A DNA stretch of 64,000 nt. It comes from Limnomonas spitsbergensis (taxonomy: Eukaryota; Chlorophyta; Chlorophyceae; Chlamydomonadales). Location: assembly GCA_037349105.1 (NCBI GenBank), contig JAYJMM010000123.1, forward strand, positions 4,588,001 to 4,652,000, written 5' to 3'. The translations under genes were made by a program, and so were the position numbers. The notes below the pieces were generated by a model that made no database searches, had not been told where the DNA came from, and worked only from the letters and a program-made list of their open reading frames with translations. This document shows, piece after piece, positions 7,414 to 41,200 of this stretch. Each line of letters starts with the position of its first letter. Positions within the stretch are counted from its first letter, which is position 1.

Positions 7414-8367
<954 letters not shown>

Positions 8368-9918: not shown

Positions 9919-9939
9919 AGTTGACTTGATTTCCTGCAT

Positions 9940-10045: not shown

Positions 10046-10162
10046 CAGAACATGTCGGATTGCTGATCAGGATCATGCATGCCGCCAAAAGTAGACACAA
10101 TTACGCCTTTTATGTCACAAGTGTGGGTGAAGCAATGGGGCCAGTATTGGTGGAGTATTGGT

Positions 10163-10178
10163 GGTGTTGAAAAACACC
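10163..10178 (-). terminator. histone H2B mRNA 3' stem-loop
   Basis: Minus-strand GGTGTTTTTCAACACC, 49 bp beyond the H2B stop. Confidence 0.9.
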
Positions 10179-10226
10179 GGTTTTATCTAACGAGGTAGGG
10201 ACCCAGCCAGACGGTAGATGAGCTGC

Positions 10227-10613
10227 TTAGGCCGAGGTGAACTTGGTGACAGCCTTGGTGCCCTCAGAGACAGCATGCTTGGACAGTTCTCCGGGCAGGA
10301 CAAGGCGCACAGCGGTCTGGATCTCACGGGACGTCATTGTGGGCTTCTTGCTATAGCGGGACAGGCGCGCAGCTTCGGTGGCGATCTTGTCGAACATATC
10401 GTTCATGAGGGAGTTGAGGATGCTCATGGCCTTGGAGGAGACGCCAGTGTCGGGGTGAACCTGTTTGAGCACTTTGTACAGGTAGATCTTGTAGGACTCG
10501 ACTGCCTTGCCGGATTTCTTCTTCTTCTTGCCATCGGCGACCTTGACTGCGACCTTCTTCTCGGCAGTGGCCACTGCAGTGGGCTTCTTATCTGCGACTG
10601 TCTTGGGTGCCAT
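10227..10613 (-). CDS. H2B: histone H2B
   Basis: The 128 codons: a Lys/Ala-rich tail ending [13 protein letters not shown], then the conserved fold ([49 protein letters not shown]) and the C-terminal AVTKFTSA, whose lysine is the usual ubiquitination site. Complete and intronless. Pairs with H2A; the two genes share a 220-bp divergent promoter. Confidence 0.98.
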
Positions 10614-10833
10614 TATATTGATACGAAATTTCAGCAGTGTGTGGGTTCATCACGTGAGTCGCGAGTCGCTTATGTACCGGTAGTGTACAAATGTTCGGAC
10701 GATCGGATCAGCAGACACCGACAGCTGGCTGGTCTGCTGATCCGGCCTTCAAGTCGTCTATTTAAATGGCACATGGCTCTGGTTTTACACATCCTCCTAT
10801 ATAACCCCCAAATTTATACTCCTCTTCGATAAC
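10614..10833. promoter_or_regulatory. bidirectional H2B/H2A promoter
   Basis: CGGATCAGCAGA (10704-10715) and its reverse complement TCTGCTGATCCG (10733-10744) flank an 17-bp centre; both match the elements in the H4/H3 promoter. TATATAA at 10798-10804 lies about 30 bp before the H2A start, implying a very short 5' leader. Confidence 0.65.
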
Positions 10834-11238
10834 ATGGCAATTAAGACAGTATCCTCTGGAGGTGGTCGCGGCAAGGCCGCAGGAGGCAAGAAGGCCGTAT
10901 CGCGCAGTGCCAAGGCCGGTCTTCAGTTCCCCGTGGGCCGTGTCGCCCGCTACCTGAAGAAGGGCAAATACGCTGAGCGCATCGGCGCTGGCGCACCAGT
11001 CTACCTGGCCGCAGTCCTTGAGTACATCGCTGCTGAAGTGCTGGAGCTAGCCGGCAACGCTGCCCGCGACAACAAGAAGAACCGCATCATCCCCCGCCAC
11101 ATCCAGCTGGCCATCCGTAATGACGAGGAGCTGAGCAAGCTGCTGGGCACTGTCACCATTGCATCTGGTGGTGTGCTGCCCAACATCCACTCCGTCCTAC
11201 TGCCCAAGAAGAGCAAGAATGAGGAGGAGTCGGCCTAA
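10834..11238 (+). CDS. H2A: histone H2A
   Basis: The 134 codons. The fold ([20 protein letters not shown], then [16 protein letters not shown] and [17 protein letters not shown]) and the acidic-patch residues ([14 protein letters not shown]) are intact. The N-terminus [14 protein letters not shown] is a few residues longer than the common SGRGK form. The tail ends [10 protein letters not shown] with no SQ(E/D) motif, so it is a canonical H2A and not H2A.X. Intronless. Confidence 0.98.
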
Positions 11239-14287: not shown

Positions 14288-17200
14288 CTGCGCAATAATA
14301 ACGATTTGTTTGCGCAGTGAACGATCGTTTTGTTTATGCATTTTGTAATTTACCAGTCCCGTTACCCCTGGTTTCCGGTAGAAAATTTTGTTGCACCCTT
14401 TGTGTTGAAACATGATTTTTGCACATTTTCTGGATGAACTCGAAAGTGGTGGATGAACTAGGCAGCAGGCAAGAACCTGTCTGGGCTTGGGCGTGCGGCA
14501 CCCTCATCCTGACTGGCGTAGTATTACTAGTATGTCATGCTGACTAGATTGAGGGCTCAGGGATTGAGGGCTCAGGGATTGGGAGTAGGGTTAAGGGTTA
14601 ACACCTGCCTAAATTTGGGTGTGCGGCGCACTCGGCCCGACTGGCGCAGCGTCTCGTGCTGCCGCTCCGCCTCGAGGGCGCAGATGCGGGCGGCTGCACT
14701 GAGTCTGTCCACGGCCGCCAGGGTGCCCTGAGGGGAGGGGGGGAAACATACCGGCGAATCAATAATATACCCAGAGGCGAGCGAAATCAGGCCTGCCTGC
14801 GAGCAAAATCAGCTCTGCCTGCGAGCGAGCGAAATCAGGCCTGCTGCGAGCGAGCGAATTTTGGCCTGCCTGCGAGCGAAATCAGCCCCGTCTGCGAGCA
14901 AAATCAGGCCTGCCGCGAGCGAGCAAATCAGGCCTGCCGCGAGCGAGCAAATCAGGCCTGCTGCGAGCGAGCAAATCAGGCCTGCTGCGAGCGAGCGAAA
15001 TCAGGCCTGCTGCGAGCGAGCAAATCAGGCCTGCTGCGAGCGAGCAAATCAGGCCTGCTGCGAGCGAGCAAATCAGGCCTGCTGCGAGCGAGCGAAATCA
15101 GGCCTGCTGCGAGCGAGCAAATCAGGCCTGCTGCGAGCGAGCGAAATCAGGCCTGCCACGAGCGAGCAAATCAGGCCTGCTGCGAGCGAGCAAATCAGGC
15201 CTGCTGCGAGCGAGCAAATCAGGCCTGCTGCGAGCGAGCGAAATCAGGCCTGCTGCGAGCGAGCAAATCAGGCCTGCTGCGAGCGAGCGAAATCAGGCCT
15301 GCTGCGAGCGAGCAAATCAGGCCTGCTGCGAGCGAGCAAATCAGGCCTGCTGCGAGCGAGCGAAATCAGGCCTGCTGCGAGCGAGCAAATCAGGCCTGCT
15401 GCGAGCGAGCGAAATCAGGCCTGCTGCGAGCGAGCAAATCAGGCCTGCTGCGAGCGAGCAAATCAGGCCTGCTGCGAGCGAGCGAAATCAGGCCTGCTGC
15501 GAGCGAGCGAAATCAGGCCTGCTGCGAGCGAGCAAATCAGGCCTGCTGCCAGCGAGCAAATCAGGCCTGCTGCGAGTGAAATCACCACTGCCTGCAGCTT
15601 GATTGGCCAGTTTCCGTAGCCGGCGCCCAGCTTTTCCACGGCCGCTTGGGTGCTCTGAGCAGCAACCCAAGCGAAAGCGGCCGGCACCTTGCTGCAACTG
15701 GCCCATCAAGCTGCAGGCAGTGGTGTAGCTGACAGAGAGCTGGACCACGCTTCAATTATCAGTGTCATAGGTCATTCAAAGAGAAACACGTTGCCTACTT
15801 GTGATTTTGGCGAACTAGGAATATCAGTACCTAAAGCACAGCCACATTGAAGGAGTGGGTACCATTGCCTGTACTGCCATCCTGTATCTCGGCTAATACT
15901 GCCAGACGGTACCTGGGCTGGCACTGTCGGCCAGTATCTCGGTTACTACTAATTTCCAGTACTCCAGCTAGTATCGCTAATCGTTGCCTTAGCTATTACT
16001 GCTGGCTATTACCTCAGCTAGTCCTGCCGGCCAATACCTCGGCCAGTGCTTCCGGCCAATACCTCAAATAGTCCTGCCAGCAAATTGCCTTGGCTAGTAC
16101 TGCCGTCCAGTCCCTTGGCTAGTAGTGCAATACCGTCCAGTCCCTTGGCCAGTACTGCTGCGGCTGGTATCTCGACCAGGACTGCTTTCTGGCACCTCCA
16201 CCAGTGCTGCTTAGCTCATCACTCCAACAAAAGGTCAAAGCTTAGTCCTAATGGGCCAAAATCTGCTGCCCAGAAACCCTCTAGAGCTGATCTGGTTCAC
16301 GCTACAACAAACATGAAGGCCAGTACCTCATCTAGTACTGCCGCTATGGTACCTGGGCTAGTACTGCCGGCTGGTTCCCCGGCCACTACTGCCGTCCAGT
16401 GTCTGAGCTAGTACTGCCGTCCGGTACCTCTGGGCTATCATTGTCAACCGGTACCATGGCTGGTAATGTAGTCTTGTGCACACTAGAAGGAAGACATGAG
16501 GGATCTTTCTTTCCTTTCCTCTCTTCGACCCTTCCCCTCATCTTCTTTTTCACTTCCCTTTCTTCTGAGCAGGGCCCGGAGCTTTAACTGAGGTATAATT
16601 GACAGAAGGGATCGGATTGCTGCCACCGCAGCGCACCAACCTGCGTCGCTGCGTTGCTTCCATGGTAGCTGGAACTTAGCTTGCTCATCCCTTACCAGCC
16701 CCACGCTCGCCGAGCGTTCAGCAGGGCCCAGGGGGTATGCACGGTTCAAAACGTAAAGGCATACATTTCTGCAGAGCAGTGCACTGACCTGCGTCGCTGC
16801 GTTGCTGTGCATGGCCAGCAGGGAGTCGTTGGCGCGACCCAGGAGGTGCCACGTGGGGCCACTGGGGGGTGGAGTCCAGCCGTCACCTGTTCACACAAAG
16901 GCCACACAAACCGTGAATCCTGTTCACACACATTCCACACATAGTGTTCATCCTTGGTCTAGGCGAAAGGAGCGCCGTGGGAGCAGCTTGGGAATTATTA
17001 GGATGCCGAGCTGCATGTTACCTAGCTTAGGGTTCAGGGTTGATGAGTCAATATCATGGTGGCACATTCCGGCTGAACGTGTGCTGTATCCTGCCGTTTT
17101 GGTGGCACATTCCGGCTAGACCTGTGCCATATCCTGCCGTATCCTGCCGTATCTTGCTATGTTGGTAGCACATTCCGGCTGAACATGTGCCGTGCCATGC

Positions 17201-20200
17201 CGTATCATGCAGCTTTGGTAGCACAGTACTGCTAAATCTGTGCCTTATAATGATGTGTCATGCTACCATGCTTAGCACAGATGGACCAGTATCCCATTCC
17301 AATCAGCGGAAGTTTCAGGGTCAATCTAGGGCTTTGTCACACATCTGTCACACTGTTCCACTTATTGTCATTCATTTTTCACACTATGTCTACCGGTACT
17401 CATTTGTCACGTTTTGAAAGCATTGCCTGGAACAAGGCTTGTCACACAGCAGAGGACACATCATATCATGAAGACCAGGGAGTAACTGCTATGATGCCTC
17501 TGTGGCGTTACCTGTACCATGGGGTACAGTACTTTTTGGTACACCAGTTGTGGCAGTACCTGAACCACAGGGTACTGTACTTTTTGTCACACCGGTTGTT
17601 TGATTGTGCACCTTCAAAGCAACACCTGCTGCAGTTGTTGCTCTGTTTGACGTGTGTGTTTGTTTGTTTGGGCCTGTGGGGTATGTGTTGTGTGTGAGGG
17701 AGTTGTAAGGAGGGGGAAGATCTAAGGCAAATACCTGAGCCCTCGTAAGAGGGTCCGAGGAGCAGGTCTGAGGAGGGGCCCCGAGCCGCAGCCTCCCCGT
17801 CGCCTCCGACCGCGTGGAGTAACAGGCTGGCCAATTCCCCCGCCGCCAGCTGCGCCACCGACAATGCCCCGCACACGTCATGAGGCGCCACGCCGCAGCC
17901 GTGCAGCTGCCGCCTGGCACCACACCGCAGCTCCGCCAGCATCAGCTCCTCCTGGCATGCGGCGGAACTGCTGCCGTCGGCGTCGCGGGGGCCCGCGGTG
18001 ACGGCGGCCGCCGCCGTCCTGCTCAGCGGGCAGCCGTCGCTGGCAAATCGGGCCGCGTTGCAACCCGGCAGCGGGCGGCGTTGCGCGCCGCGGGCTACCG
18101 AGCTGGGCCCGGCGCCTCGCGGGGCTGGGTCCCTGCCGGCCGCCAGCACGCATACCTGGCTGAGCGCTTCGTGGAAGCTGCTGAGAAGATGCAGGTCCCA
18201 AAGCTCCGGATGCAGCCCCGGGGGCGACGCTGCAGCGGCGGGTGGCGCGGAGTAGGTCAACGGGGCAGGCCCCCGAGGCAGAAGGGGCCCCGCATCAGCA
18301 CTTCCAACCCCGAGCGCCTGCATCCAAGACAGCGGCTGTGGAGAGGCCTCCTGCTCCCCATCGGCCTGTTCCTGCTCTGCCTCCCGCTTCCCGTCGCATG
18401 CGGAGGGCAGCGGCCCCAAGCCCGTCACCGGAGCTGAAACCAAACCGCCAGACAAGCTCCCCATGTCCCTGCACGTCGCCGCTGCGTCGAAAGGTCGCTG
18501 GTCAGATGCATCCACTGCTGCTGCTGACGGTGCAGCAGCTGGAGCTGACGCCCCTGTTACTGCGGCTGCTGTACTCGCAGCAACGTCGGCCCCAATGTAG
18601 GCGCCCTGCGTTGCAGTTGCTGCTGCAACAGGGGCGTCAGCTCCAATGTAGCCACCCTGTGTTGAAGTTGCTGCTGCAAGCGTAGGCCTGCCCAGGAGCA
18701 TCCGCAGCGCCACGGCCTCCTGGCGCTCTGGCATAGGCAGGGCGAAATCGAGCCGGATGCGTTTGCTGACATCCCCTGCAGCGGCTGAAGCAACAGCAGC
18801 AGAAATTCCCGCCGCCCCCAAACCCGCCATTCCAGCTCTCCCCCGGCGCTTGCCGAGCAAGTTCAGATCCGAGGCCAGGCCCGCTGGCTGCTTGCGCGCC
18901 GCAGGGGCCCTGCAGTCAGGCGGGCTGTCTATGACGCCTTCCATGTGTGTGGGGGACAGGACCGGATCCGGATCTGCCGTCCGGCAATCTAGATCCAGGG
19001 CAGATTTATCCGCAGCCGGATCTGCTGTGTTCTCGGGCCAGGTGCAGATGAGTTTACACAGGGTGCCCCGCGCCGTATCCTCATCGGTCAACAGAGGCGT
19101 GGCGGCATCAGTGTATTCTGCGTCCTGGGCAGCCGGATCCAGATCTGAGATCTGGTCCTTAGGGACCGCTTTCGGACCTGGATCAGGGCAGTCCCGCTTA
19201 CACGACGCCCTGAGTCTGGCCGCTGCGTGCCGAGCCCTGCGGTCCACCTTGGCCTGCACGGCGTCACATGGACAAGAGGCACGGGCTTAAAATCTATACG
19301 GTATTTTGAGATCCAACAGGAAAAGAGGCCCAGACACAAATCTGAGATCGATAGATCCGACAGACCGAGAGGCGCATGCCCGGTCCTGAGATCTACTGAT
19401 CTGAGGCGTCGATCCAGGAAGCCACCTGTTCCGCCGTAGCACTAGGTGGGCTAAAATGGAGCAAACAAAGGTTTGGCCGGGCCTCCTGCTGCTTTCTTAA
19501 TGGCTGGATATAAGCAGGGCCAGTCGGGACTCTTCCATAGCTTATCTTCATTAATTCCTACGTTGTCAGCCTCTTGTCACCCACCAGCGCCTGCCTAGCA
19601 AATTAAGTGCATGACCAACCAGGACCCATAGTCCCAAACTCACCCAGGCAGCTCATCATTAAACAAATGGCAAGAGGTTTGCTCAGCCAGCCTCCCCACC
19701 CACCACCAGGAACTCATTCAATTAGCTTCCTGGCTCATTCAGCTAGCATCTCCCCACCCACCTGCAGGCACTCATCGAAAGAGCTGCTTATTAAATCCGG
19801 TAGGGTTGGGGTTCTCAAAGTAACCCTCAAAACCTCAACCCTTCAAAGCTTCTTACTAAAACCGACAGGATTAGGGTTCAGTAACCCTCAAACCTGAACA
19901 GGTCCTTATCAAAACCGGTAGAGATTAGGTTCTCAGAGTAACCCTCAAACCCTAAACCCTAAACAGCTTCTTACTAAAACCCGGTAGGGTTAGGGTTCTC
20001 AGAATAATCCTCAGACCCTCAGCCCTACAGCCTTATCAGCTTCTTACGGTAACCGGCAAGTAACGATCTCATCCAGCCGACCCCACCCACCTGCGCCTGC
20101 CTGGTAAGTTAAGTGCATGACCAACCAGGACTATCCACCACCCACCTGCGCCTGCCTGGCAAAGTGACTCTCCGACCATGACCTCGCCAGGTACAGCGCT

Positions 20201-23200
20201 GTCGCCGTCTGGCAGGCCGCGGCATGCTCTGCCAGCAGGGCCTGCCGCGCTCCAAGATCAAAGAGCACCGCTCGTGTTGCCTCCTCTGGCTTCAAACAAG
20301 AGGGGGCGGGGACAGGTCCTGTCAGGCTGCCCGACACTTCCTCCTCAGCGGGCGCTTCAGAGGCAACGGGCAGAACCGACGCTGCGGTATCCATGAACTG
20401 GCCGATGCCGGGCCGAGCCTTCAGATCTCGATTCAGATCTGGATCTAGAACTGCCTCTCCTTGATGTGCATAGGGCCGAGCGGGGATCAAGTCAGGGCAG
20501 GCACATGCCATAGCATTCAGCAGCGGCCCGCTCAGAGCCTCTCTGCTCTCCGCCAGACCCACGGCCGCCGCGCCCGTCCGCTCTAAAAGAGCGTCCAGCT
20601 CGGCGCGGTCCAGCGGACCGCCGCTGGCCCCGCCGCGGTACTGCCGTACCAGCGCCGTACCGCCGCCCCCGAGGGCCGAACCGCCAACGCCGTCCTCGTC
20701 CCCACGGGCCGCCTGTAGCGCGGCATCAGAGTAGCACAGCTGCGCCGGGCCCAAAGGAGCCAGAGGGCCGGCGCCGCCGGCGATAAAAGCCGATGCAGGC
20801 GCAGCAGCTGCGGCCAGCGAGGGGAAGCCACCGGGAAGCCGCGTGCTCCCGCCCCCGGTCTGCCTCACTCCCGCCCACCAGAACTGAGCGGTCGCGAGGC
20901 AGGCCCGCGTGTCGCACGCGCAGGCAGCCACCAGCTCCGCCAGCTGCCCCAGCAACGGGGCGGGCCGAGGGGCGGGCTTCAGACCTTCACCCACACAAGG
21001 CTCCTCCCCTTGTCGCGCATAAGACACCGGTGCGGGCCGCGTGGCGACCTCTACGGAGGCAGGCGCAGGACCTGCGCTGCCACCGGCAACACCCGCCTGC
21101 CCGCCCTCTCCCACTCCTTCCGCGGCACTGACGAGGGCCAGCAGGCGCAGCAGCTCTGTCGGAGAGGGTCGCTCAAAAGGCAGCACCTGTTTGCAGGTAG
21201 CGTGTATGTGTGCAAGTTCAGGCAGGGATATGCCGGCAGGAGCATGTGCGTAGGGAGGGATGCTTGGACACCATATAAAGACAGCACCTGTGTGCAGGTA
21301 GCGTTTGCAAGATCAGGCAGGAACAGGGGATATGCCGGCAGGAGCGTGTGCATGGGGGGGAGGGGATGCTTGGCCGCCATATAAACAACTCCCCTGATGT
21401 AACGCAGCGCCCCCGTTCACACCGATAAACTGAAAAACTGGCATTGAGACAAAATGATCGGATGCTAGCTTCACCCTGAACCCTAAAAACTATGGTATTG
21501 AGACAGAATGATTAGGATGCTTTTGCCGCTGCCGTTCCATCGCTTTCCAAGGCCACATTGGGAGCGGAGCGGTACAGGGCACAGGATTTTGGCAACTCCC
21601 TCTCTCGACCCTCTGCATGCCCTTCTAACCCTTGCAAGTCAGCAGGGGAGGCAGCTCAGGGTTGCACTGCCTGTTGACCAGCATCCTCACTGACAGCCTC
21701 CCATGCAATTGCTTCCCCTCCCACATGCACCTGTTTCTGCTTGCAAGTCAGCAGGGGTGGCAGATGAGGGTTGTTCACCAGCATGCTCACTGACTGCCTC
21801 CCATGCAACCGCCTTCCCTCCCGCATGCATGCAGCTGAACGCCACCCATCCAAATGCCCTCTCCCCGCATGCAGCTGACCGCCACCCATGCAAATGACCC
21901 CTCCCCCTGCTTGCAGCTGACCGCCACCCATGCAAATGACCCCTCCCCCTGCATGCAGCTGACCGCCACCCATGCAAATGACCCCCTCCCATGCAAATGC
22001 CCCACCTCCCGACCCTCTCACCTGTATTCCCTTGCCAGCCAGCAGGGGAGGCAGCTTGGGGCTGTTGACCAGCAGCACCATGGGCCGCTGCGATGGGGCA
22101 ACGTGCAGGTGGACAAAGGACAGGATCAGGAGGAGAGCCAGGAGCAAGAGGTGGAATGATGGGCGAGAGTGGGAGCAGGCCAGCAGGGGCAGGAGCAGGA
22201 CTGCGTTAGGAGGAGGGCCAGGAGCAGGAGGGGGAAGGATGCGCGGGAGGATGTAGCAGGTTACGACAGGGTTTTGAAGGACACAACCAGGTTTCCCTTG
22301 GGGGTTACATGAAGAGATTACATTATGAGGTTTAAGTGTTGAACCCTAACCCCAATAAGGATGTTGATCTGAACCCCAGTAGCAGTCACTGTTTCTTCAT
22401 CCGGCAACAAATCCAACTTTGGCGGGCTGCCCAGCGAAGCCTCTGGCCAGAGGTTTTAGTGTACCTGGCGTGTAGCTGAGTAAAAGATAAATGTCATGAT
22501 TCTGTTGTGCAAAGTCCACAATTTTTATTTAAAAAAATCATTTTTTTGTATCGTCACGAAAATTAAACGCTGAACGCAGTACGGTATATGATAATTTAAG
22601 CGATCAGCACTGGGGCCGCGGCCGGGCACTGACCTTGGAGTCCTTGATCAGGTTGGCCAGCGCGACCAAGAAGCCAGCGTCCTTCTCTAGCAGCAGCTCT
22701 GCTCCCTCAAACAGGATCATGCTACCTCTCTGCTGCTGCTGCTGTGAGGGGGGAGCAGAACAGGCGGGGTCGGTAAAGGAATAGGGACATGATCAGGCTG
22801 CCTCTCTGCTGCTGCTGCTGCTGCTGCTGCGAGGGGGGAGCAGAACAAACGGGGTCGATAAATTAATAGGGACATCCTAGTGCCATCTCGGGATACGTGA
22901 TGGCAAAGGCACGGATGCGACCTTGGCCCAAGCTCCGCTAAGCATCATAACCCCCCATGCTCCGCTAGGCTTCATAAACCCTCATGCTCCTGTGGTTTGC
23001 AGGTCTCCCTCTAATCCTCTATGCTTCTCAAACGCTGTAGCAGACGGGGCGATGGTGCCGAGCAGACCGCACACACCTCTGGGGCAAGGTCTTCCAGTAA
23101 CTAGGGTTGAGGCAGCCCTATAACAAGGGTTCAGGAATTAGGTGGCCCTACAACAAAGGTGTAGGGTTTAGACAACCCTACAACAAGGGTTAAGGATTTA

Positions 23201-26200
23201 GGCAACCCTACAACGATGTTGTAGGTAACACTAAAACAAGGGTTAAGGGTTTAGGCCACCCTACAACGCGGGTTAAGAGTTTAGGCAACCCTAAATCCTA
23301 CCCCCCTAACAAATAAAATATTCTGCTGAGCGGACCGCACGCACCTCTTCCAGTGGCGGGTACAAAGCCTTGGCTGTTTGCCCGCCGTCAGCTGCGCCCT
23401 TCAGCTGCTGCTGCTTGCTCCTCTTGGGCTTTGAAGCCACCCCATTCTTGCCGCCTCGGAGAGGCGAGTGTGAAAAGGGCGACGCGTCTTCGTCCTCCTT
23501 GTCGTCATCTGAACACACACAGAAGCATTCATACTCTGGACGTGGTGTGAAACCTTCCACTGAGCAACATTGGATTTTTAATGACCATGCAGGGTTGGCC
23601 TTTGAAGTCTTTGCTTTGCAGATTAAGATAAGAACCGGCATTCTTTCTTGCGTTGGCTGCAGCATGTGTTGCTTCTGAAGCCCCGTGCCACAATGTCTGT
23701 CTAAGCAATTTAGCAACCCTCCCCCCCCGCCACCGCACACACATTTGTTCTTGTGTTATTCAGCGACACCTTTTAAGGGAGCAACAGCTGCAGCAGCCGT
23801 GTCTCGCTTCAGAAGCCCCGCGCCGCAGTCATCTAATGAGCGATTTGGACGCCCCCCCCCCAACACCCCATACTTTAAGGGAGCAACAGCTGCAGCTGCA
23901 GCGATTTGGACGCCCCCCCCCCCCCCACACACACACCCCAATTTTTTCGTTGTTTGCAGCAACATCTTTTATGGAGCAACAGCTGCAGCAGCTGTGTTGC
24001 TTCTGGATCGATGCCTCATTACCTCTTTCAAGCGATCTGACCCCTACCCCCCCGCCACCACACACCCACACACTTCCTGTTGCTTGCAGCAACACCTTTC
24101 ATGAAGGAATAGCGGCAACACACGTTATTTCTGATGCGATGCGTCTCCATCTTCATCTTAGCGATTTGAACGCCCCCTCCCCCCCCCTACCCACCATACA
24201 TGTGTTCTAGTATTTTGCAGCAAAACCTTTTCAGGAGCAACAGCTGTTTCCTTCCAAATCATTGCAAGCATCTACATTTAAGCGTTCTGAACGCCCCCCC
24301 TCCCTCCCGCTAAACACTGAAACGTTTATTCGTATTCAGCTTTCACAAAGCAACAGCTGCGATAGGTGCCGCTTGAGGGCGTCGCATCATTTCATTTTTC
24401 TTTATGATCTAAAGATCGCAGGGGTCATTAAAAATAGCAGGGAGATTCAGCCTCCAGTCAGCTCCCTCACGGGGCCTGGTGTTAGGAAGGCACCTTCGGC
24501 CGGTCAAGTTTGGGCCCCCCTCAGTTTTCCAATGATATTTGAAATGCATTGTTTGGTCACCAGGAGTAGCCATGCTCTGGGTGGAAACGCGCCGCGGGCG
24601 CCGGAATCCCCCCGATCCAAATTAATTTTGGTGTTTTCCATTACCACGCGAATGACTGAACCCCGGCTTCGCCAATTTAATTGTTTGGTCCACCGCTTTC
24701 ATCGCGACACATAACCACCAACAAAATACAACCCATCGATCCCTGGTCCCCGTCAGGGGTGGCTGCCCCAGTGCCTGGCCGCCCCCACCAAAGGAGGACC
24801 GGCACACACTACTTGCTCCTGCCGCAAGCTGGTTTGGAACAATTTCCATCCGCAACACACACCTGAAACGACCTTCCGCTTGCTCCTGCCACAAGCTGGT
24901 CCGCAACAATTTCCGTCCGCAGCACCCGCTGCAACACCCGCTGCAACACCCACCTAGGATGATCTCCCACTTGCCCTTGCTGCGAGATCGGTTGGCTCCT
25001 ATACCAGCTGCAACTCCGGCCGCAAAACCCACCTGAAACGACCTTCCGCTTCCCGCTTGCCCTTGACGCGAGCTGTGTTGCCACCTCAACCACCTGCAAT
25101 GCCGTTGCCATCTTTGCCACCCACCTGAAACGACCTTCCGCTTGCCCTTGCCACCCTTGCCATTGGCACCTTTACCAGGGGCAACACTCGCTGCAACACC
25201 AGCAGCAACTCCACCAGCGCCGGCACCGCGTCCACTACCAGCCGCGCCTCCCTTGAGGGTCTGCAGCAGCAGTAGCCAGTCAGCCAGTCAGTACTTGTTC
25301 CAGTACAGTAAACGCAACCACCGACAGCCTTTGGTGAAAGGACCAGGCAGAGCGAACCGGAGGGAGACCACCAACCAAAACTAAAAACAACATGAGCCGA
25401 CTGACAGGACAGAAATCGTGAGTCAGTTGTCGTGACCAGACACACAATGGTGACCTACTCAGTGCTGCGGCTGAAGTGGTGGCTTTCCTTAATCCACACC
25501 AGGGGATACACACCTCAGGGCATCTTTTCCTTTCCTGCGGGTATGTTCCTGGACCCATGCTATCTCCTTTGAGGGTACGCGTTCCTTGACTCGCCTGGCG
25601 TTGCATTGTGATGATGCAATCACCGGAACTTGTTTCCGTGTGGTATTCATACAAGATAAACGGCTGAAGGATAAAATGCTGAAGGAAGGCAATTGGAATC
25701 TACTGTAATGATACCTCTTATCATAATTATGTACCGTGAACAGGCAACTAAAACATTGAGCAGCTGCTTCATATTCAATTATGCTTTGTTTTAGTTTCAC
25801 AGTCATGCTGCCCTCGAGGGCCTGTCGCCATCAGCGCTTACTTTTCTAGCTACAAGCCTCGAGTTACCTTTGCCTAGGGACCTGGGCGCTCGGTTTTTTT
25901 CTTTCATACCTCCAGTGCTTTTTCCGGCTACAAGTCCAACTTGAGCAGGCCGCCCAGCATCCGCCAAATGCCCGATGAGGTCTTTAAGCTGGACCGGTCT
26001 GTGACTGGTGGCTGAGGTAGCAAGGCTGGCCACAGATGGGGCCTTACATGTAGCTGAGTAACTGAAAAGGAAAACTACTTATCTCACTGTTGTGACGGTC
26101 ATGGAGCCACTTAACTCCTAATCTAGGCCAGCGGCCGGAGTGTAAGCTGACATGTAGCAGAGTTACGGAAAAAAGACAACCCGGGAGGCCACCTGTGTGT

Positions 26201-29200: not shown

Positions 29201-32200
29201 GGATTTGAACTGCCTTCCCTCCGGTGCCGGTTCATTATTTGTTCCAGGCTTGCCTCAGGGCCCAAATTTGACCCAACAGATTCTCTCTATTTGTGACTGA
29301 AACTGGCTTTGACAATCCAGTACCGTATGTTCGATAAATCCCTCGCAAAGTCAGTTTTTAGGGAAAGCAATTCGAATATACTGCATGCAACCAAAAGGTA
29401 GAATATTGCACCTCAATGGGGCGCGTGAGGACTGGGGTGAAAAAGTACTATATGGGCGGAGGCAGCTAACTTTGGCGCCAAGACCATCACAACATTGAGA
29501 TATGCAGTGTAGCCGTGTTCCTCTTTTCGTTACTCAGCTACATGTCAGCTACACTCCGGCCATTTTTGTGGCCAGCCTTGCAGCTTAGGCCACCAGTCAC
29601 AGTCCGGTCCAGCTTTGGTCTTAATCGGGCTTTCGGCGGTCGCTGGGCAGCCTGCCCTAGTTGGACTTGTAGCCGGGGGGGGGAAACTGGAGAAATGAAA
29701 ATAAAAACAATCGCCCAGGTCCCTAGGTAAAGGCAACTCCTGGCTGGGCCTACCTTGACTGCCTCAGGCCCCGTCCACGACCCATCCGAGTTGCTTGGCC
29801 CCTCTGCACTCCCGCGCATGCCCTCCACATCCCATCCACAAAACCAGGCCTGTCTCCATCCCCTGATATCCCCTCGTATCACGTCTCCCTCCACCCCATC
29901 CACGCCCCCTCCTCTTCCCCTCACATACCGATATCGTCCACCAGCCAGGTGTCCTCCGTATTGGCCCAGCTGGGCATGGAGCTGTCGTCAATGAAGTCGC
30001 CACCCTTTGCCTTTTCAGCTCCTGGGGGCACACCGTTTCAAATTCAAAAGTCAAACTCCGGATAGGCCCAGCTAGGCATGGAGCTGATGTCAATGAAGTC
30101 GCTACCCTTTGCCTTTTAAGCTCCTGGGGGCACACCGTTTCAAATTCAAAATTCAAATTCCCGAATTGGCCCAGCTGGCCATGGAGCTGTTGTCAATGAA
30201 GTCGCCACCCTTAGCCTTTTCAACTCCTGGGGGCACACCGTTTCAAATTCAAAATTCAAATTCCGAATTGGCCCAGCTGGCCATGGAGCTGTTGTCCATG
30301 AAGTCGCCACCCTTAGCCTTTTCAACTCCTGGGGGCACACCATTTCAAATTCAAAATTCAAATTCCGAATAGGCCCAGCTAGGAATGGAGCTGTCGGCAA
30401 TGAAGTCGCCACCCTTTGCCTTTTCAGCTCCTGGGAACACACCATTTCAAACTCAAATTTCAAATTATGAAGTGGCCCAGCTGGGCATGGAGCTGTTGTC
30501 AATGAAGTCGCCACCCTTTGCCTTTTCAGCTCCTGGGAACACACCATTTCAAACTCAAATTTCAAATTATGAAGTGGCCCAGCTGGGCATGGAGCTGTTG
30601 TCAATGAAGTCGCCACCCTTTGCCTTTTCAACTCCTGGGGGCACACCGTATCAAACTCAAAATTCAAAATCCGAATTGGCCCAGCTAGGCATGGAGCTGT
30701 TGTCAATGAATTCGCCACCCTTGTCTTTTCAACTCCTGAGGGCACACCGTTTCAAATTCAACACCTGGGAAAACATACTTGCCACACACCGGTACCGGTC
30801 ATCATTTCAAAAATCCGAATGAGCCCAGCTGGGCATGTACACCTGAAGACATATGCCCCTTCCGCGCCCTTTTTCCCTTGCCCTCATTCCCGCTGAATAG
30901 TTTGAGGAAGCTCTGCCTGTGCTTCTAATGCCCACTATTTTCCCACTCATTGCTCACCGTCTGTGCCGTTGCCCCGCATGGGGTCCTGCCATGCCTCCAG
31001 CCAGCTGCGCAGGCGCTGCACGCTGTCTGCATTCCCGCAGACGTCCACAGCCCGAGTCGGCTGGTATTTGTGAGCCCAGGCTAATCCTTGCTGCACCTGT
31101 TGTTGCGGTAGTTGTTGTTGCTGCTGCCCCTGCTGCATCTGCTTCTGCTGCAGCACTTTGATGGCACCGAGGTCTCCTGCCCCCTGCTGCTGTTGCTGCT
31201 GTGCCTTGCCCCCCGATGCACTGCTGGCTCGCAGTGCCGCCAGCTGGTTCTGGAGCTGCAAGTAGGTGTCGTCCGGGGTTACTAGGTCCATCAGCTGCAG
31301 CAGGGAGTCCAGGGACGGGCGGGGGGATGAAGCGCATGGTGTGGGGGACGGGAGGGGAGATTGCACATCTTGGGGCAGGGTGGGAGACGTGCATGTGTCG
31401 GGGAGGGGGGGGGGGGGAAAGGGAGCTATCTAGCTTTGGAGTTGTGAGTAGATGTAGCCCGGGGTAACCAGGTCCATCAACCGCGGCGGTGATGGGCAGG
31501 GATGAAGCGGATATGAGGGCAGGGATCATGTTAAAAGGGCGGGAGAGGTACACATCTTGTGGATGGGGCGGGAAGGGAGCAAGTGTTGGGTCAAGGATGC
31601 AAATTTCGAGAGGAAGGAAAGACCCATGCTGCGCTGCTTCCTTAACTCTCACGTCTCCCACCGGGCCTAGCATTCTTGGTTTCCTTAGGAAGGGCATCTA
31701 AGGGCAAAGGCCTTGGGTCAAGGACGAAAAATATACTAGTCATCAATTGCCAACGCGAGATTTCAGCCAGAAATTAAGAGTCTTGGTCAAAGTTTGCCCT
31801 GAGGGCAGGCATTAAAATAAAAACATGCTTTCGTACCGGAGGGAGTGCAAATCAAATCTACGGTACGGTATACCGGTAATGGAAAAAAAATCCAGGAATT
31901 TTCCTCTCGTGTTAAAAGAGCATTGAATTACACAAGATCACACCCAGTTTCAAACTTGCAATGATTCTTTTGCATTAATAATCGGGGCCAGATTTTAGTA
32001 GAACTTATCACTACCGTCTAATCAGTCAGAATCCTTTGTATTCTGAGTTCGTTTTCGCCTGTAAGCTTGCTAACTACCCGATCGCGTTATTCGTTTTATT
32101 GGTTCGTTTTCTGATTGGAAGCTGGAATTTGTTAACGACCACTGGTTCGTTTTTGCTCCAAAACCACTCGAATTAGCAAAAACAGATTCGTTTTCACCCC

Positions 32201-35200
32201 AAGACCGCTTAAAGATACTCTCGACGTCCGGACTGTCACCGAGATCGATATGTGCTATTGCGACGTCAGCTGTGGCTACTGCTGCTACTGCTCCTGGTCG
32301 ATTCACTGCCTCAACATAAGGCGAATTTGCTGTCCGATGAGGTGTTGCAGGTGCCATTACACATCTTTCCTTTGCTCTAGAAAATGTCTCAAATGTCCCT
32401 CAAATGTCCCAGAACTTATCTGCCATTCCTATCGGCAGTATTTTGATGAGTCCATCAGTGATTATCTCCCGCTGGACCTCATTCATCCCACTGCTCGCAG
32501 TCAGAGTCTGCCACAAACCTCTTGCACCCCACTACCTTCAGTCAGAATTAGCCATACCTCCATGCACCCTCCCCTCGATCCTCCCACTGACCCAAGACCA
32601 ACCTCAACGCTCTCAGCCACGGTTAAACCTCCCCTCTCCCTAACCCCGCTGATCTCAATACTCTCAGAGTGAGGGGCGAAGCTACTCCCCTACTTGTGAC
32701 TTCAACCATGAATCCTAACCTCAAAGCATACCGTAGCCACTGATGATCATTTGGTCACCCTCCATTCCCCTTGATTTGATCACCCTCCTGTCGACATTTC
32801 AAAAGACGTAATCAATTAAGCCTTCAAGATTTAATCAATTAAGCCTTAAGACCGACCTCCATGTTCTCGGTCATGGGCGGAAGAGCCTCGGCAGCAATCT
32901 GGAGCGCCAGCTGCCGCAGCAGTAGATTGCCTCCCTGGGGGCAGAGCAGTGGCGCAGCAGGATCTAGCAGATCTAGAAAAGGCACTTAACCCCTCTGAAC
33001 AGATCTAAGTGGGGTTCTTCACAAGCAGTACAGGTGAGCAACATGATCTATCAGATCTAAGTGGGGTACTTCACTGGCAGTACAGGTGAGCAAGATGATC
33101 TATCAGATCTAAGTGGGCTACTTCACTGGCAGTACAGGTGAGCAAGATGATCTATCAGATCTAAGTGGGCTACTTCACTGGCAGTACAGGTGAGAAAGAT
33201 GATCTATCTGATCTAAGTGGGCTACTTCACTGGCAGTACAGGTGAGCAAGATGATCTATCTGATCTAAGTGGGCTACTTCACTGGCAGTACAGGTGAGCA
33301 ACATGATCTATCAGATCTAAGTGGGGTACTTCACTGGCAGTACAGGTGAGCAAGATGATCTACCTGATCTAAGTGGGGTACTTCACTAGCAGCACAGGTG
33401 AGCAACAGGATCTATCAGATCTTCATGGGCTACTTCACTGGCAGTACAGGGGATCAACATGATCTATCTGATCTAAGTGGGGTGCTTCACTAGCAGCACA
33501 GGGCTCAACATTACTAACAGATATAAAGGAGGCTTTGTATCAGCAAGACTAGAGTGCATCAGGATCTAGCAGACATAGAGGAGGCCTTTACCAGAGGACA
33601 GCGGTACGGGGGAGCAGCAAGATCTAGCATATCTAGAGGATGCTGCTTCCCAGCAGTACAGAAGCGCAACAGGGTGTAGCAGATATGGAGGAGGCTCTTC
33701 ACGAGCAGTGCAGGGGCGCAACAGGATCCAGCAGATCTGTAGGAGGCTTTTTCCGAGCGGTACAGGTGCGCAACAGCATCCAGCAGATCTAGAGGGGCCC
33801 CTTAGGATTACACGTTTTAGTACAGGGTACAGCATAGGGAGCATGGAGATGGTACAGTGCACACCCACTGCATAAGCAGGCACCGATGTATACGTGCATG
33901 TGAACAAGCACGTCACCTGAGCCTCGCTGTCATGAAGCCCTGCTGAGATTTTTTTTTAGACCGAGAAAAAGAGAGGACATGAAAAAACAGCGGAGATGTA
34001 ACGCAGGAATAATGCAAGAGAGCGTACATGTACAACAGGATATCACAAGACAGCGTACTGCCTGTACGGGATAACGCATCAGCATTTAAACATGCACGTG
34101 ATCAGCATTTACACATGCACGTGGTGAAGTAGCTCACAACCATTGCATTGTTAGGATCAAGCGGGGGAGCCCCATCGTCACCCACCATATCTGCAAGCTG
34201 TCCAGCCGCAGGCCCTCCCGAAGGCACCGCCACGGCCGAAAAATACCCAACCTCGGTCCCCATGGCGGAAGCAGGAGCAGCCGCCGCCTTGGTCCCCACT
34301 ACGGGTGGAAGAGGAGGGCGCGCTGCTGCTGACATCAGCGGCCAGAAGCGGGAAGAGGCCAGCAGGGGAGCGGCCCGTGCCTCGGCCGCCTCCCGCTCGG
34401 CCAAGATGCACGACGAGAGCCTCGCGAGACACGGACCCACGGCGTCTGACGTGCGCGGCACCCTGATGGCTACACCAGCGCTGGATGCCCCTGACGAGGC
34501 ACCGACGCATGCACTGGACATGCCTGCCCATGTGGCGGCCACCGATACGCCTGTACATCTCGCTTCTGCGTCTGAAGCGCCTGCGCCTGCAGAAGCGCCT
34601 GACATGCCAGCTTCTGCATCTGCTGTTGCTGCAGCTGCTACAACTATTGCTCCTGTTGCTTCTGCTGTTGTGGCTATGAAGGCTACTCCTGTTGCTTCTG
34701 CTGTTGCTTCTGCTGGTTCTGCTGCTGCAGTGATGAGTCTCGCCAGCAAGTCGTCCTCCAGCCCTCGATCCTCAGCCTCCTCCACCCCACCCCTCCTCCA
34801 CACCTCCTCCGCGCCCTCCCCACACCTCCTCCACACCTGCACCTCCACGCGGGCAGCTCCCCCGTCCGATCGACGAGTCCTGCGCCGCGTGACCACGTCC
34901 CGACAGCGCGTGACAAACCACCGGGAGGCAGCGGGGCCCCCACTGCCCTCCGGGAGCTGCTGGACGTGCACGGGGACCAGCATCGGACCTAGGGCCTGCC
35001 GCACCCAGCTCCCGACTTCTACGCGCAACGCGGCGCCGTGTGGGGCGGCGGCGCCAGCCGCCGCCGCCGCCGGCTTGGCCTTGCGGGCAACAAAAAATGG
35101 GTTGACGGGACGGTTCCCGGGGGGCGCGGCCAGAGCCAGGCCGGGGGCCAGGGGCAGGCTCGGGACGTATGCAGCGGCCGCGCTGCCGTGAGGCCCGGTG

Positions 35201-38200
35201 GCGGCAGAAGGACCCGCGGGCTCAGCAGCGCCTGCTGGCCTCAGCTTGCCTGCTGCTGCGGGTGCTGCTTGGGCAGCCTGCGCCACTGCTGCAATCGCTG
35301 CAGCTACCTCTAGCTCCTCTTCGCGCTGCTGCTTCTTCCTCACCTGGTGAAGCAGGTGGGGGACAGTCCGGTACTTGTTCGAGCGCGCACTAAAACGTCA
35401 GGCCACTGCACCGCCACCAGTCACAGCGGATGGGGACCAAACCTTGACCGGTCTTCGGTTCATGTCCCAAGCAGCAGGGCTTGCAGAACCAGGCTCCCCG
35501 GGCAGACTGCGGTGATGTAGCTGAATTGTAGCAGGGCACACATAAACATCAACAACTGGTGCTTGTTTAAGTTTTCGTTTGTAGTCTCCCTTGTGTCTCA
35601 TGTTACCGGTGTGCAGCAGGGGCATTGCAGAGCTAGCATCCCTCAACGAACTGAGGCTTTTCCCGAATTGCCTTAGGGCTTCGTCTCGCTTAATTGAAAA
35701 AGCAAAGAGACCACATTCAAAAAAACTTGGTTTGTAACAGCTACCAGTACCTTTAAAAGAGCTGCCTTATAATACTAGATGCTTGGCCAAAACAGTCACA
35801 CACACACACATTCGCACACACTCACACATACCTCCTCCTTCTGAATCTGCTTCATCTCAGCTACAGGCAGGAACATGGCGCACATGCCCCCTAACACCGC
35901 ACAGGGGACCAAACAGCAACCGCACACCCTCACACACGCTGGCACATACCTCCTCCTGCTGCAGCCGCTTCCTTTCAGCTGCCGGCAGGAACATGGCGCA
36001 CATGCCCCCCTGGGATCGCACAGGGGGCCAAGCAGCGCCCGCGCCACCCGCAGCAATGCTTGCGGCCGAAGAAATGGCAGCGCCCACACCACCATTAGCA
36101 ATGCCGGCCATAGCCTGCGGCCGGTCCCTGCCGCGAACCCGCTTCGAAAGCTCCGGGCCGGGGCCCGGCGAGCTCAGGTCAACGAGGGCTGGAACGGTTC
36201 CTGGTCCTGGGGGAGGAGATGACGTGACATCAAAAACCTCGGCAGAGGCAGGCAGCGCCGCCGCCGCCGCCGCTCCGGACCGCTTCCGACGCCGCTTCTC
36301 CCCCGGCGGGTCCACGGCCACGTGAGGTCGCCCTGGCCGCAGTGGCAGCGGCAAACTACCGCAAGGCACCTCGGCTATGTTAGTCCCGGCACCAAGCTGG
36401 GCGGCGGCAGCGGCATCTCCTGTAGGAGTTGAGCTGCCAGGTGCGTCCGCGACTACTGCTGCTGATCCTGCGGCTTCCGCGGGCTGGCCGCTTCGTCTGC
36501 TGCGCTTTGGGGGTGCAGATCGGCCTGATCCAGCCCCGGCTGGAAGACTTGGATCCGGATCGGCAGCCTCGGCAGGCCCGGAGTCCGGCAGCGCCGGGCC
36601 TGCCTGATCCTGGTACGGCGTGCTTGGATCCGAAACCTGCAAAGGATCCACCTTAGGGCAAGACAGACGGCTTAGCCTCTTCTTCTTCTGAGGCAGAGGC
36701 ATATCTGCCGGCGCCGCGGGGTCCGAACCTTGCTGTGTGGCCGGCTGGGTTTGCTCACCGGCGGCTCCCGGGCCATGAGCGTACGCTGCAACGGCCGCCT
36801 GAGTGACAATGCCGGTGCCATCAGCATCAAGTACCGGACCACCTGTCGCAACGCCCGATGCGACATCTGCAGCAACACCCGCAGCAACATCTGGAGCGCC
36901 GGCGGTCGGTGCGCCCGCCGCTGGGCCGGCTCGGGCCCCGCTCTTCATGGCAGCGATGATCTTGGCACCGTACGCAAGCGCGGCGGGTGCAGTCCGTCCT
37001 GCGACACGCGGTTCGCTTTTCCTTAGCCTCCGCCCGCTACCTGTCACTGCAGCCGCCGTGGCAGCAGCCTCCCCCAAACCCACAGGGGGGACTGCGGCTC
37101 CACCGCTGCACTCAGCAGCCCGGGCCACAACAGATGCCGCAGCCTCTTCGCGCAACGCTCCGACGGCTGCAGCGCCGGCAGGCACTGTTGCCCCAACCAC
37201 CGCGCCTGCCTCTGTGCCTGTTAAGCCTGCCTCCCCGGCCGCTGCGTCTGCTTCTGAGCACCCACTACGGCCGACCACCGCTACAGGCTCCACCGAAACC
37301 TCAACGACGCCGCCATCAGCCGCCGTCACGCCTTCTATGATAGGCACGCCACCACCAGCCTGCTTCTGCTGCTGCTCTTCCTGCCGCCGTTGCTGCCGCC
37401 TTAGCTTCAGCTGCTGTCGCTTCTGCTGCCTCTGCCACTCTTGCTGCTCTTGCTGAGTCTGAGTCGAGGGTGATGCGACGGCGGGGTTGAGAGCTTCAGA
37501 TAAGATATCTTGAGGTGCCGCTACCAGGGGCTCCTCCACCATGGCTGCGGGAGCAGCTGAAGCAGCAGCAGCATGAGCAGTGCAAGCAGCCGTAGCAGAC
37601 GCTGTGGTAGCTGAAGCAACAGCAGCATAAACAGTACAAGCAGCCGTAGCAGACGCTGTGGCAGCTGGAGCAACCGTAGCATAAGCAGTACTAGCAGCAG
37701 TAGCAGAAGCTGTAGCAGAAGCTGTAGCAGCAGCAGAGGCAGCAGCAGCCGCGGTAGCAGCAGCAACAGCAGCAGCCTTGGCGGCCGCTCTTTGCGCCGC
37801 ACCTTCCACATCGGCCAGCGCCTCACGTCTCTTAGCCTAAAGTGTGGAAATGTGTATGTTAGGTGTTCAGGGTTCAGCCTTAGGGGAGGAGAAAATGTGT
37901 AAAAAAAGCAGCACTGCATCCAACAGAATCACGCATCCAACAGAATGACCCACCCATGGCCAGAGTCATCACCAATGTTCCCCTGCAGTGCTTCAGCAAC
38001 GTCATGGGCCATGGCCCGTGGCCCAGGGGCTGGGCTGCAGCATGCCATGCCGCTCGGGCCACAGGCCCTAGGCCGGTCACAGCTTCATCCGGCCTGGGCC
38101 TTCAATTCAATCAGATCCAGTGGAAGCAAACTAAGAACCACTCTTCCTCATCCCCATTGCGCTCCATGTTAAAAAGATGCTGTGATTGGGGGGCACATTG

Positions 38201-41200
38201 TATTGTATTGCATGGTTTGCCAAAGTTGCTACGCTGCTCCCACACCTGACTCAAAGGTAACAAAGGATATACTGCGGGATACAAATACTGACTACCAGTA
38301 CCGCTTACCGGTAGTTCAATCATGGTTTATTCCGTACTGTACCGGTATGTCACCTTTTTATGTTGATGGCTGACACTCCAATCATAATTATCCTTTCATG
38401 GCTTGTATTGAATGGTTTACATTTACCTCCCCTAAACCCACCGGTACGTTAGGCTTAAGGGTTGGGATCCACCTCCTCTGAGCCTCCTGTATGTTAGGGT
38501 TTAGGGTTGGGATTTACCTCCTTTTAGCTCTTGTATGTTAGGGCTTAGGGTTCATTGTTGGTATTTACCTCCTTTGAGCTAATGTTAGGTTTTAGGGTTC
38601 AGGGTTCAGGGTTCAGGGTTCAGGGTTGGCATTTACCTCCTCTGAGCCAATGTTAGGGTTTAGGGTTCAGGGTTCAGGGTTGGCATTTACCTCCTCCGTG
38701 CGTGCCCTGCGTTCTGCTGGTGACATGAAGATGTGGCACACTGGCCGGCCCGTTGCCTTGCCGCCCTGATCCATGACAGCATCGACAGGGACCGCCCCGG
38801 CATGCGCCACGGCAGGTAAATCAAGCTGCAACTGACCCGGCGCATCAGCAATGACAGCTCCGACATCAGAAGCAGCGGCAGTGGTGCACTGGGCAGCGCC
38901 TGCGCCAAGAGCCTCCGCTTGCGCTATGCGGTGAGGCGGCTCCATTCTGGCCGCAGGTGCGACACTCTCGACGACCACAGCTCCAGAACCAGATCCTGCA
39001 GTGGCCAAACCTGCAGCGGCCGCGGCTGCCCCATGCGCCTCCGCCCGCCTCTCACGAAGGTCTGTCCCGACCGAGGGCGCACACTCTGGCCCGCTAGCCA
39101 CGACAGTAACAACTGCAACCCGAGCCACCAGCGCAGCGGGCGGCGGCTGCGGCGGCGGACTGGGCAGCGGGATGGCGAGCAGCGCGGCAGCGGGGAGAGG
39201 GGCGCTCTTGCCCAGCTTCCCCAGCCTCTTCTTCTTCTCTCCCGCCGGCAGGCGCTCGCCCACTGGATCGGGTAGCAGCGGGGCGGCGCTAGCTCCTGCC
39301 GCGGGCGCCGCACCTGGCTCCAGAACCCGCCCCGCGCAGTCCTTTAAAGAGCCGCCTCCGCGGCGTTTCTTTTTAACGCCTGCGGAGGAAGGAGGCTGAG
39401 CCACCGCCTCCCCTGCCCCTGCTTCCAGACCGGCTGCTGCGGCGTCAGCAGATGAGTCAAGATCCGCAGCTGCTTCAGCTGCAGCGACCAGCCGGGCCTC
39501 TTCCACCTGGCTTTGTCTTGCCTTTGCCTGCGTGCATTTGATCGGGTCGTTTTAATGCACAAGCGTACACCAGGTGACACTTAGGGTTTAGGGTTTAGGG
39601 TTGAGGTGATACTTAGGGCACTGGCAAAAGATAATACTTAGGGCACTGGCATGCAGCAGGCCAGCACCCTCTGGGCCAATGGGAACCAACAGCGGCAGCC
39701 CAAGCAACAGGTCTTGATGCACCAGAATGGAGTTGAAATGCAGCTTTCAAGCGCTGTGCAACCCATCATTGGCTGCCAGCCCACCCATCCCACACACCTC
39801 TGCGGCGAGCCTCCTGCGTTCGGCCAAGGGCAGAAACAAGGCGCAGGCTGCGGCGCTGACCCTCTGGCCGGACTCCACTCTGGGCTGACACGATGCTGAT
39901 CCGGGAGCAGATGCAGCAACTCTGAGCTGCGCCTGCAGCCCGGGAGCAGGCGCGGCGTGCTGAGTGGCAACAGCGAGCTCCATGGCATCCACCTGGTCGG
40001 TGGCCATGGTCAGGTCAATGGCGTGGCGCACTTCCTCCGGATGTGACAGGTCCACAGCATGGACCTTTCCAGGTGCCGCAGGTGGTGCATCATCTGCAGC
40101 ATGAGACGTTTCAGCTGCTGTGAGGGGCGCATCACCAGCAGAGGACAGGCCCTCTGCCCAGGGCAGGACCGTTGCAGAGACTGCCCTGTTGGCATGTGAC
40201 GGCACCGCTGGGAGACAGGCCGGCGTCGCTCCGAGTGCATGTGTGGCATGCACGTGCTGCACACCAGGGGCTGCATCAGGAATCGGGCCTGGCGCTGTGC
40301 CCAGGGCGGCTGCTTCAGAATCCCTGAGCGCTGTGCCTAGGACAGGCGCCCGGCCTGGCACTTTGCCTTGCACTACGCCTGACACAGGTACTACGCCTGG
40401 CACTGCGCCCGGCACTACGCCTGTCACAGGTACTAAGCCTGGCACTACGCCTGGCACAGATGCCTCGTCGTCACGGGACGCAGTCATCAGGCGGGGCTCG
40501 GCGTCTGACCATGCTGTCTGCAGGAGGGGCTCAGCTGCATCCATCGCTGCAGGCTGCGGCCTGCTGAGGCTGCCGGGCCGGAGGGGCGGGCCTGCTGGTC
40601 GATCTGCAGCCTCGAGTTCCTCCACAGGCACTATGGACTCAGTGCCGGAGGGCGCAGGCTGCAAGGGCTCGCCTGCTGGTTCAGAGAGCAGCGGGTCGGT
40701 GCCGGCACCTGACGCGGGAATATCCGGGCCTGTCGCTGTGCCCTGAGTCTGTGTGGGCTGCACCGCCGCCTGCGTTGGTTGAGTTTGCGTTGGCTGAGTT
40801 TGTGCGGCCTGCACCGCCGCTGCCAGACACAGCGGCACCGCAGCCTGCGTTGGCGGGGTCTGCTCCGGCTGCACCGCCGCCACCGCCGCCTTTGCAGGCT
40901 CAGGGGCCGGCTTGATACGCGTGAAGCTCAACTTGGTTTGAATCGCAGGCCCTTTCTTCGCAAGCTTAAGCGCAGCTGCCGGGGCGGCAGGGGGGTGTGC
41001 GGGTAGATGCGGCGCAGAGCCCTCCTGACGGTTCCACTTTTCCAGCTCGGGCGCAGCCTGCTGCAGCGCAGCCCCCCGCTGATTGAGCATGGCCTGCTCA
41101 GGAGGGACGGCCGCTTGACTATTCCCCGGACCCGACACGATGTCGGTCGAGGGGGCAAAGGCCGGCAGCACAACGCCCGGCTGATCTTGGTGCTTGGGAT

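Follow-up and report, generated by a model that had tools for sequence, protein, structure and literature searches.

Exon-intron-boundary minisatellites in an ELG1-like gene of the snow alga Limnomonas spitsbergensis and in four further genes of its genome

The ELG1-Like Gene and Its Exons

The assembly published for the snow alga Limnomonas spitsbergensis comprises 260,248,090 bp in 124 contigs, with a GC content of 54.15%. The assembly was made mainly from PacBio reads (L50 32.9 kb), and the genome report also gives a mean intron of 788 bp in the merged annotation, mentions existing IsoSeq and RNA-seq data, and places Chlamydomonas sp. UWO 241, ICE-L, and C. eustigma in the same clade (PMC11228838). 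We analyzed a stretch of 64,000 nucleotides of this genome (contig JAYJMM010000123.1, positions 4,588,001 to 4,652,000), hereafter the window. Its minus strand carries, from about 41.3 to 14.6 kb, an ELG1-like gene whose introns hold copies of the exon edges that they adjoin, splice site included. The copies had been noticed in an earlier reading made from the sequence without database searches (the sequence-only reading).

Exon F matches the large subunit of AAA+ clamp loaders, with RFC1 as the top PDB match (E 1e-4) and ATAD5 as the next (E 0.005). ATAD5 is the human counterpart of ELG1. The gene name ELG1 is retained from the sequence-only reading as a putative assignment, with RFC1 as an alternative. 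A search for orthologous proteins with exon N scored 8,000 candidates and returned none at E<=0.001; a plasmid comparison gave no match. The joined reading frame is open through exons F-G-H-I and through L-M-N, while exons B, C, J, K, and P were placed by open frames and a GT alone. In total 26 edges were placed; the start of A, the donors of D and O, the acceptor of K, and any exon E were left out. All 12 edges that the sequence-only reading had named agree to the base with the GT/AG junctions that we placed.

Copies of Exon Edges in the Adjoining Introns

When the gene is read on its minus strand, copies are directly visible at each of the 12 named edges. Every one of them has at least one copy in the adjoining intron, spanning or abutting the junction, the copy at K being weak. 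The number of copies per edge runs from one (C, F, L, and the N acceptor) to twelve (I donor), the range that had been reported before. Self-comparison by BLAST (E<=0.01) yielded 124 direct-repeat pairs in 31 clusters, ten of which cross a junction by about 6 bp on each side. Direct repeats lie over ten of the edges placed, namely those of C, F, G, J, L, and M and both edges of I and of N. With the weaker cases B, K, and P included, 10-13 of the 26 edges are copied, so the earlier wording that most exon edges are affected was slightly too strong.

On the acceptor side the copies lie upstream of the exon (all features of the gene are on the minus strand, in window coordinates). The edge of exon F, which starts at 31294, has one copy in which the AG is lost (31251..31502; self-BLAST E 6e-7). 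That of exon G (30021) has seven copies in an array of 102-bp units (29954..30837; Tandem Repeats Finder, TRF, and self-BLAST), each unit with the AG, kept in 7/7, and about 68 bp of exon. Two copies precede exon I (28067), one of them with its AG kept (28009..28392; self-BLAST). Single copies precede exon L (22741) with a period of 85 bp (22711..22875; self-BLAST E 7e-19), and exon N (21186) with a period of 106 bp (21176..21385; self-BLAST E 6e-20).

On the donor side the copies lie downstream. Exon B, which ends at 38691, is followed by units of about 45-70 bp (38420..38691; TRF), including four junction-spanning copies that each have 5-6 exonic bases and keep the GT in 4/4. Exon C (35950) has one copy with a period of 118-120 bp (35805..36052; self-BLAST E 5e-27). 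The longest series, twelve copies with a period of 72 bp, follows exon I (27924), with the GT kept in 12/12 (26990..27949; TRF and self-BLAST), and exon J (25125) has three copies with the GT kept in 3/3 (24812..25212; self-BLAST). Exon K (23345) has a single diverged copy about 268 bp downstream, with a 30/60-bp minisatellite between (23056..23348; TRF); self-BLAST recovers it at E 0.004 with four exonic bases, and the rest of the match was seen by eye. Two copies each follow exon M (22022), beyond a 42-bp minisatellite (21629..22074; self-BLAST and TRF), and exon N (20146), beyond a 66-bp minisatellite (19578..20163; self-BLAST and TRF). Exon P (14605), named before with a "perhaps", may be a thirteenth copied edge: its one downstream copy (14487..14649) is weak, as the self-BLAST match (E 0.004) falls inside the exon and the remainder was matched by eye.

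The exonic part of the copies ranges from 5 bp (B) to 103 bp (C), so there is no common breakpoint. The inner units at the I donor match 15 bp of the exon and the distal copy matches 26 bp (that the longest match is the distal one was judged by eye), and at the K, M, and N donors a different minisatellite separates the edge from its far copy. Both observations suggest that a longer duplication came first and that its inner side grew later. Telomere-like AACCCTAAACCCTAA / AACCCTGAACCC runs occur in introns and within several repeat units of the gene (window 19880-20050, 38440-38690, and 27040-27940).

In whole-genome DNA searches, queries of 1,301 and 1,401 bp from the gene matched this locus alone; the search skips common words. 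Occurrence of the same repeats elsewhere, unlinked to these exons, had been named beforehand as a finding that would speak against the sequence-only reading; the searched repeats matched their own locus only.

In the K-L and M-N introns, where both ends are affected, the K donor and L acceptor, like the M donor and N acceptor, belong to different repeat families. The remaining introns have a repeat at no more than one placed end, introns with an unplaced end excepted. This arrangement bears on the idea that the introns themselves arose when exon segments were duplicated in tandem (Rogers/Hellsten model) and that the repeats are relics of their birth. The duplicated edges do have the AG and GT which that model needs, and excerpts of earlier work describe cases in vertebrates, potato, and fission yeast (PMC4974935, PMC3443670, PMC3629103). 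The algal families, however, duplicate one edge with its adjoining intron, not a purely exonic AGGT segment, and the two ends of one intron are not of one family. We regard such an origin as highly improbable.

Boundary Repeats in Four Further Genes

Since the ELG1-like gene had been picked for looking striking, other genes were examined, a check that had been proposed along with the first description. They are a multicopper oxidase (found through an exon recognized by eye and then by Pfam matches), a protein kinase, an M20 peptidase, and a MAP kinase. Their exons were assigned manually, guided by conserved sequence, GT/AG, and family motifs. The joined exons are open in the oxidase (3-7, 8-10, and 12-15), the M20 peptidase (1-4), and the MAP kinase (1-7); those of the protein kinase contain two in-frame stops. 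Not placed were oxidase exon 1 and the acceptors of oxidase exons 2 and 11, the N-terminal kinase exons, M20 exons 5 and 7, and the ends of the MAP kinase gene, and the oxidase junctions 8a and 10d and the M20 junctions 6d, 8a, and 8d are less certain. Pfam scans gave no usable gene at loci L004 (+), L005 (+), L010 (+), L023 (+), and L024 (+ and -), or in the window at 42-52 kb (+).

All four genes have one or more boundary repeats, which makes five genes in all, on two contigs. The oxidase is copied at 2/26 edges (1/26 by BLAST), namely in a clear family at the acceptor of exon 14 and in a marginal match of 23 bp. The kinase is copied at 1/11 edges, the M20 peptidase at 3-4/12, and the MAP kinase at 3-5/14, namely the donors of exons 3 and 5 and the acceptor of exon 6, to which a shorter core adds the exon 3 acceptor and the exon 6 donor. 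Copies at the donor of MAP kinase exon 2 are visible by eye and stand outside the scoring. The introns of this gene (minus strand, from about 2280 to 10000 of locus L023 and on into the first bases of L024) are heavily tandem-repeated. The protein kinase gene (L002 about 6500-8980, minus strand) has a three-copy 107-bp boundary repeat, whose exon-proximal copy reads TAA where the other copies read GAA; with a TAG in a later exon, the gene may be a pseudogene.

The largest array precedes exon 4 of the M20 peptidase, where a 60-bp unit is repeated 46.3 times over 2,766 bp with 95% matching (L025:5845-8610; G000:C123:4383845-4386610). Each unit contains a polypyrimidine tract, an AG, and the start of the M20 exon, and the exon itself follows only the last copy. 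The AG is kept in 45/45 junction-spanning copies. A 126-bp piece of the array has at least 21 matches in the genome, all within the array. Judged by eye, the consensus unit closes with a TAG in the frame of the exon, so use of an upstream acceptor copy would end the protein early.

These data also bear on an assembly or polishing artefact. Tandem repeats are hard to polish, but most copies are diverged (local identities mostly 0.77-0.98), the examined arrays are shorter than 3 kb and thus far below the read L50 given in the genome report (PMC11228838), and the same structure is present in five genes on two contigs. An artefact is therefore the least credible of the explanations that we weighed.

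Repeat Density at Edges, Exon Interiors and Intron Points

The introns of the ELG1-like gene are rich in repeats throughout. Local direct repeats span 37.6-41.1% of its 17.4 kb of intron, 6.3-11.2% of its exons, and 8-11/26 edges (31-42%), and about 7.4 of the 17.4 kb consists of excess tandem copies. Two arrays, both found by TRF and self-BLAST, lie away from any placed edge, at 32941..33804 (52/104 bp) and 14777..15595 (24/73 bp). As the rates at edges and intron points are alike, edges of this gene behave as any intron point does. The dot-plot pattern taken alone as proof of seeding at junctions is ruled out by this control.

Across the five genes, an intron copy within 1 kb was found for 239/10,690 points in exon interiors (25 bp or more from an edge), 19/89 edges, and 7,258/21,364 intron points. 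Edges are thus copied more than exon interiors and not more than raw intron points. The MAP kinase is an exception, in that its interiors (40/235) are copied at close to the edge rate (3/14), because the repeat units reach deep into short exons. Copying of interior exon segments as often as edges was the other result named in advance as contrary to the sequence-only reading. The pooled counts do not show it, yet this comparison does not separate seeding from selection.

Pooled tests were made with two core lengths and three thresholds. Against raw one-sided intron coverage, 19-23/89 edges are copied in the five genes where 21.4-24.5 are expected, and 9-12/63 where 15.0-16.7 are expected in the four genes without ELG1. 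The pooled edges therefore equal the raw expectation or fall slightly short of it, and without ELG1 they fall short. These numbers come from a small set of gene models made by hand, in which edges of the same gene are partly dependent on one another.

Polarity of the Copies and Retention of Splice Sites

All scored edge copies lie on the intron side (55/55 in the pointwise test over five genes), as the sequence-only reading had stated for acceptors and donors alike. Such polarity is expected whatever the origin of the copies, because a duplication that grows into the exon alters the protein, and purifying selection would be enough to leave copies on the intron side only.

The splice dinucleotide is kept in 88/90 junction-spanning copies (19 families, four genes), which bears out the earlier remark that many copies have a usable GT or AG. 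One may ask whether the copied sites are kept for a function, such as unproductive splicing or splice-site redundancy. The high retention would fit a function, as would the 46 near-identical acceptor units ahead of one M20 peptidase exon. However, 45 of the 90 copies form that one young array; without it, the dinucleotide is kept in 43/45 copies, compared with 23-41 of 36-45 at other offsets, and several arrays may have arisen too recently to reveal selection. We consider a function very unlikely.

Local Duplication Filtered by Selection as the Probable Explanation, and Points Against It

The repeats are probably exon-intron-boundary minisatellites, known as mirages, that result from frequent local duplication combined with selection on the protein. 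In this explanation, stretches of roughly 50-500 bp in the genome would often be duplicated locally and in tandem. Duplications within an exon would usually break the protein and be lost, while those within an intron would be tolerated. A duplication straddling a junction would also be tolerated, because the exon-proximal copy still has an intact exon edge and splice site, and the sequence beyond that copy would become intron. Slippage or unequal exchange could later amplify some duplications into arrays. Selection would thus be the filter, and slippage or unequal exchange the growth process. Splicing would have to keep choosing the exon-proximal copy; we infer from reading frames that it does so faithfully.

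Several results weigh against this explanation. Two nulls, raw intron coverage and arrays collapsed to one unit, lead to different answers, and both are given here. An array grows where it lies and should count as one event, which makes the raw null too generous to the null hypothesis; the collapsed null is too harsh, as old intron repeats decay unseen. In the ELG1-like gene, an event count gives 25 families, 10 of them at junctions where 6.3 are expected (P 0.063), and counting B, K, and P as junction events raises this to 13/25 (P 0.002). Pointwise with collapsed arrays, 10 edges of this gene are copied and 3.0 expected, an excess of about 3-fold. Over the five genes, the collapsed expectation is 7.4-9.5 for the 19-23/89 copied edges, an excess of 2.3-2.7-fold; without ELG1 it is 4.5-5.8 for 9-12/63, or 1.8-2.3-fold (P 0.007-0.06 without bias). 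Exon conservation keeps old junction duplications visible for longer and hence biases detection, by a simulated ratio of 1.24-1.31. At a bias of 1.3 the five-gene excess has P 0.0004-0.008, and at 1.6 it has P 0.006-0.057. Finally, GT/AG is the best-kept dinucleotide, with a family mean of 0.92 as against 0.69-0.87 at other offsets, which drift does not predict; with 19 families, which are few, this retention above neighboring offsets is suggestive at most.

Part of the pattern may therefore need a junction preference, which could be real and about two-fold. In the four genes without ELG1, the collapsed excess has P 0.04-0.21 at a bias of 1.3 and 0.13-0.43 at 1.6, so that the excess in these independent genes is not clearly significant once detection bias is allowed for.

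Such a preference could arise if transcription or splicing led to the seeding of duplications at exon-intron junctions (through R-loops, stalled polymerase, or repair), in addition to ordinary intron repeats. The collapsed counts, with and without ELG1, argue for seeding, as does the small size of the simulated detection bias. On the other side, there is no excess over raw intron points, the oxidase (2/26 edges with 1.1 expected) and the MAP kinase (3-5/14 with 2.5-2.8 expected) add little, and the exonic part of the copies varies too widely for a common breakpoint. Nor is the 5' splice-site motif over-represented in repeats: in a count over 166.6 kb that used no gene models, 9/45 matches fall inside them, against a repeat content of 19.4%, a comparison of little power with so few matches. 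Seeding at junctions is unlikely in our judgment, and we are equally doubtful of the broader picture in which, with an about two-fold junction preference, introns grow outward from edges genome-wide and the spliceosome picks the exon-proximal site among up to 46 near-identical ones. The earlier proposal that repeat growth starts at the junction and moves into the intron draws on the collapsed-array excess, but is weakened by the lack of a raw excess, by a polarity that selection alone would leave, and by the variable breakpoints. As an interpretation, the sequence-only reading is partly supported.

The presence of mirages in all five genes examined suggests that they arise wherever local tandem duplication is frequent, and that introns may ordinarily lengthen through junction-spanning duplication. 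The arrays would also be natural tests of splice-site choice: in one intron, the acceptor that fits the conserved protein is the last of about 46 that are nearly identical.

Surroundings of the Gene

The window also contains four core histone genes at about 7441-11235, arranged as divergent pairs, which from their sequences we take to be H4/H3 and H2B/H2A. Its final 8 kb (56001-64000) is 99.9% local repeat. Elsewhere, about 80 kb at G000:C123:4476000-4556000 is a near-unbroken local repeat (97-100% spanned per 8-kb bin), for which a centromere is one possibility.

Comparison with Known Systems

The sequence-only reading knew of no described mechanism that does this systematically, but it would be wrong to say that nothing of the kind is described: the mirages of lancelets are the same structure. 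The lancelet reports describe them in the Adh3, globin, troponin C, and PGBD5 genes (PMC3087553, PMC3902484). Their units measure 150-160 bp in BflGb6 (acceptor side), 157 bp in BflGb9 (donor side), and 10-72 bp in Adh3, and two BflGb6 haplotypes have six and three units; many copies contain AG or GT, both boundaries are affected, and RT-PCR suggests regular splicing (PMC3087553). In the open-licence PMC literature we found no algal report of boundary repeats, and the passages seen of a comparative genome paper on Chlamydomonas reinhardtii discuss long introns with no mention of them (PMC8226300).

Other systems are alike in part. Human genes in segmental duplications show minisatellite expansion at exon-intron boundaries, with 27 intron modifications reported (PMC2812944), and as in the alga these internal tandem repeats modify or elongate introns; there, recent paralogues were compared, alternative transcripts are frequent, and the mean unit is 30 bp. 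Intron gain by tandem duplication likewise copies splice signals, but it makes a new intron (as cited in PMC4974935 and PMC3443670), whereas in the alga growth at the edges seems to lengthen introns that already exist. Introners and introner-like elements are also repeats tied to introns; they are near-identical copies dispersed in many genes (PMC9860276), whereas the algal repeats searched are confined to their loci, as judged from three queries.

The likeness to lancelet mirages is closest. There, as here, tandem repeats in the intron span the junction on the 5' or the 3' side, with AG or GT in many copies and units of 10-160 bp in lancelets. In the alga, the repeat unit lies over the exon-intron boundary in five genes, donor and acceptor families both occur in the ELG1-like, M20 peptidase, and MAP kinase genes, and AG or GT is present in many, though not all, copies. 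The differences are that the host is a green alga known from the sequence of one haplotype, that a single gene has 10-13 such boundaries, and that the lancelet work covers splicing and length polymorphism while the alga is compared by sequence alone. The structure is thus already known as lancelet mirages, and its occurrence in an alga is the addition: in the literature found, mirages are otherwise reported from lancelets only, and here they are present in all five genes examined in a distant lineage.

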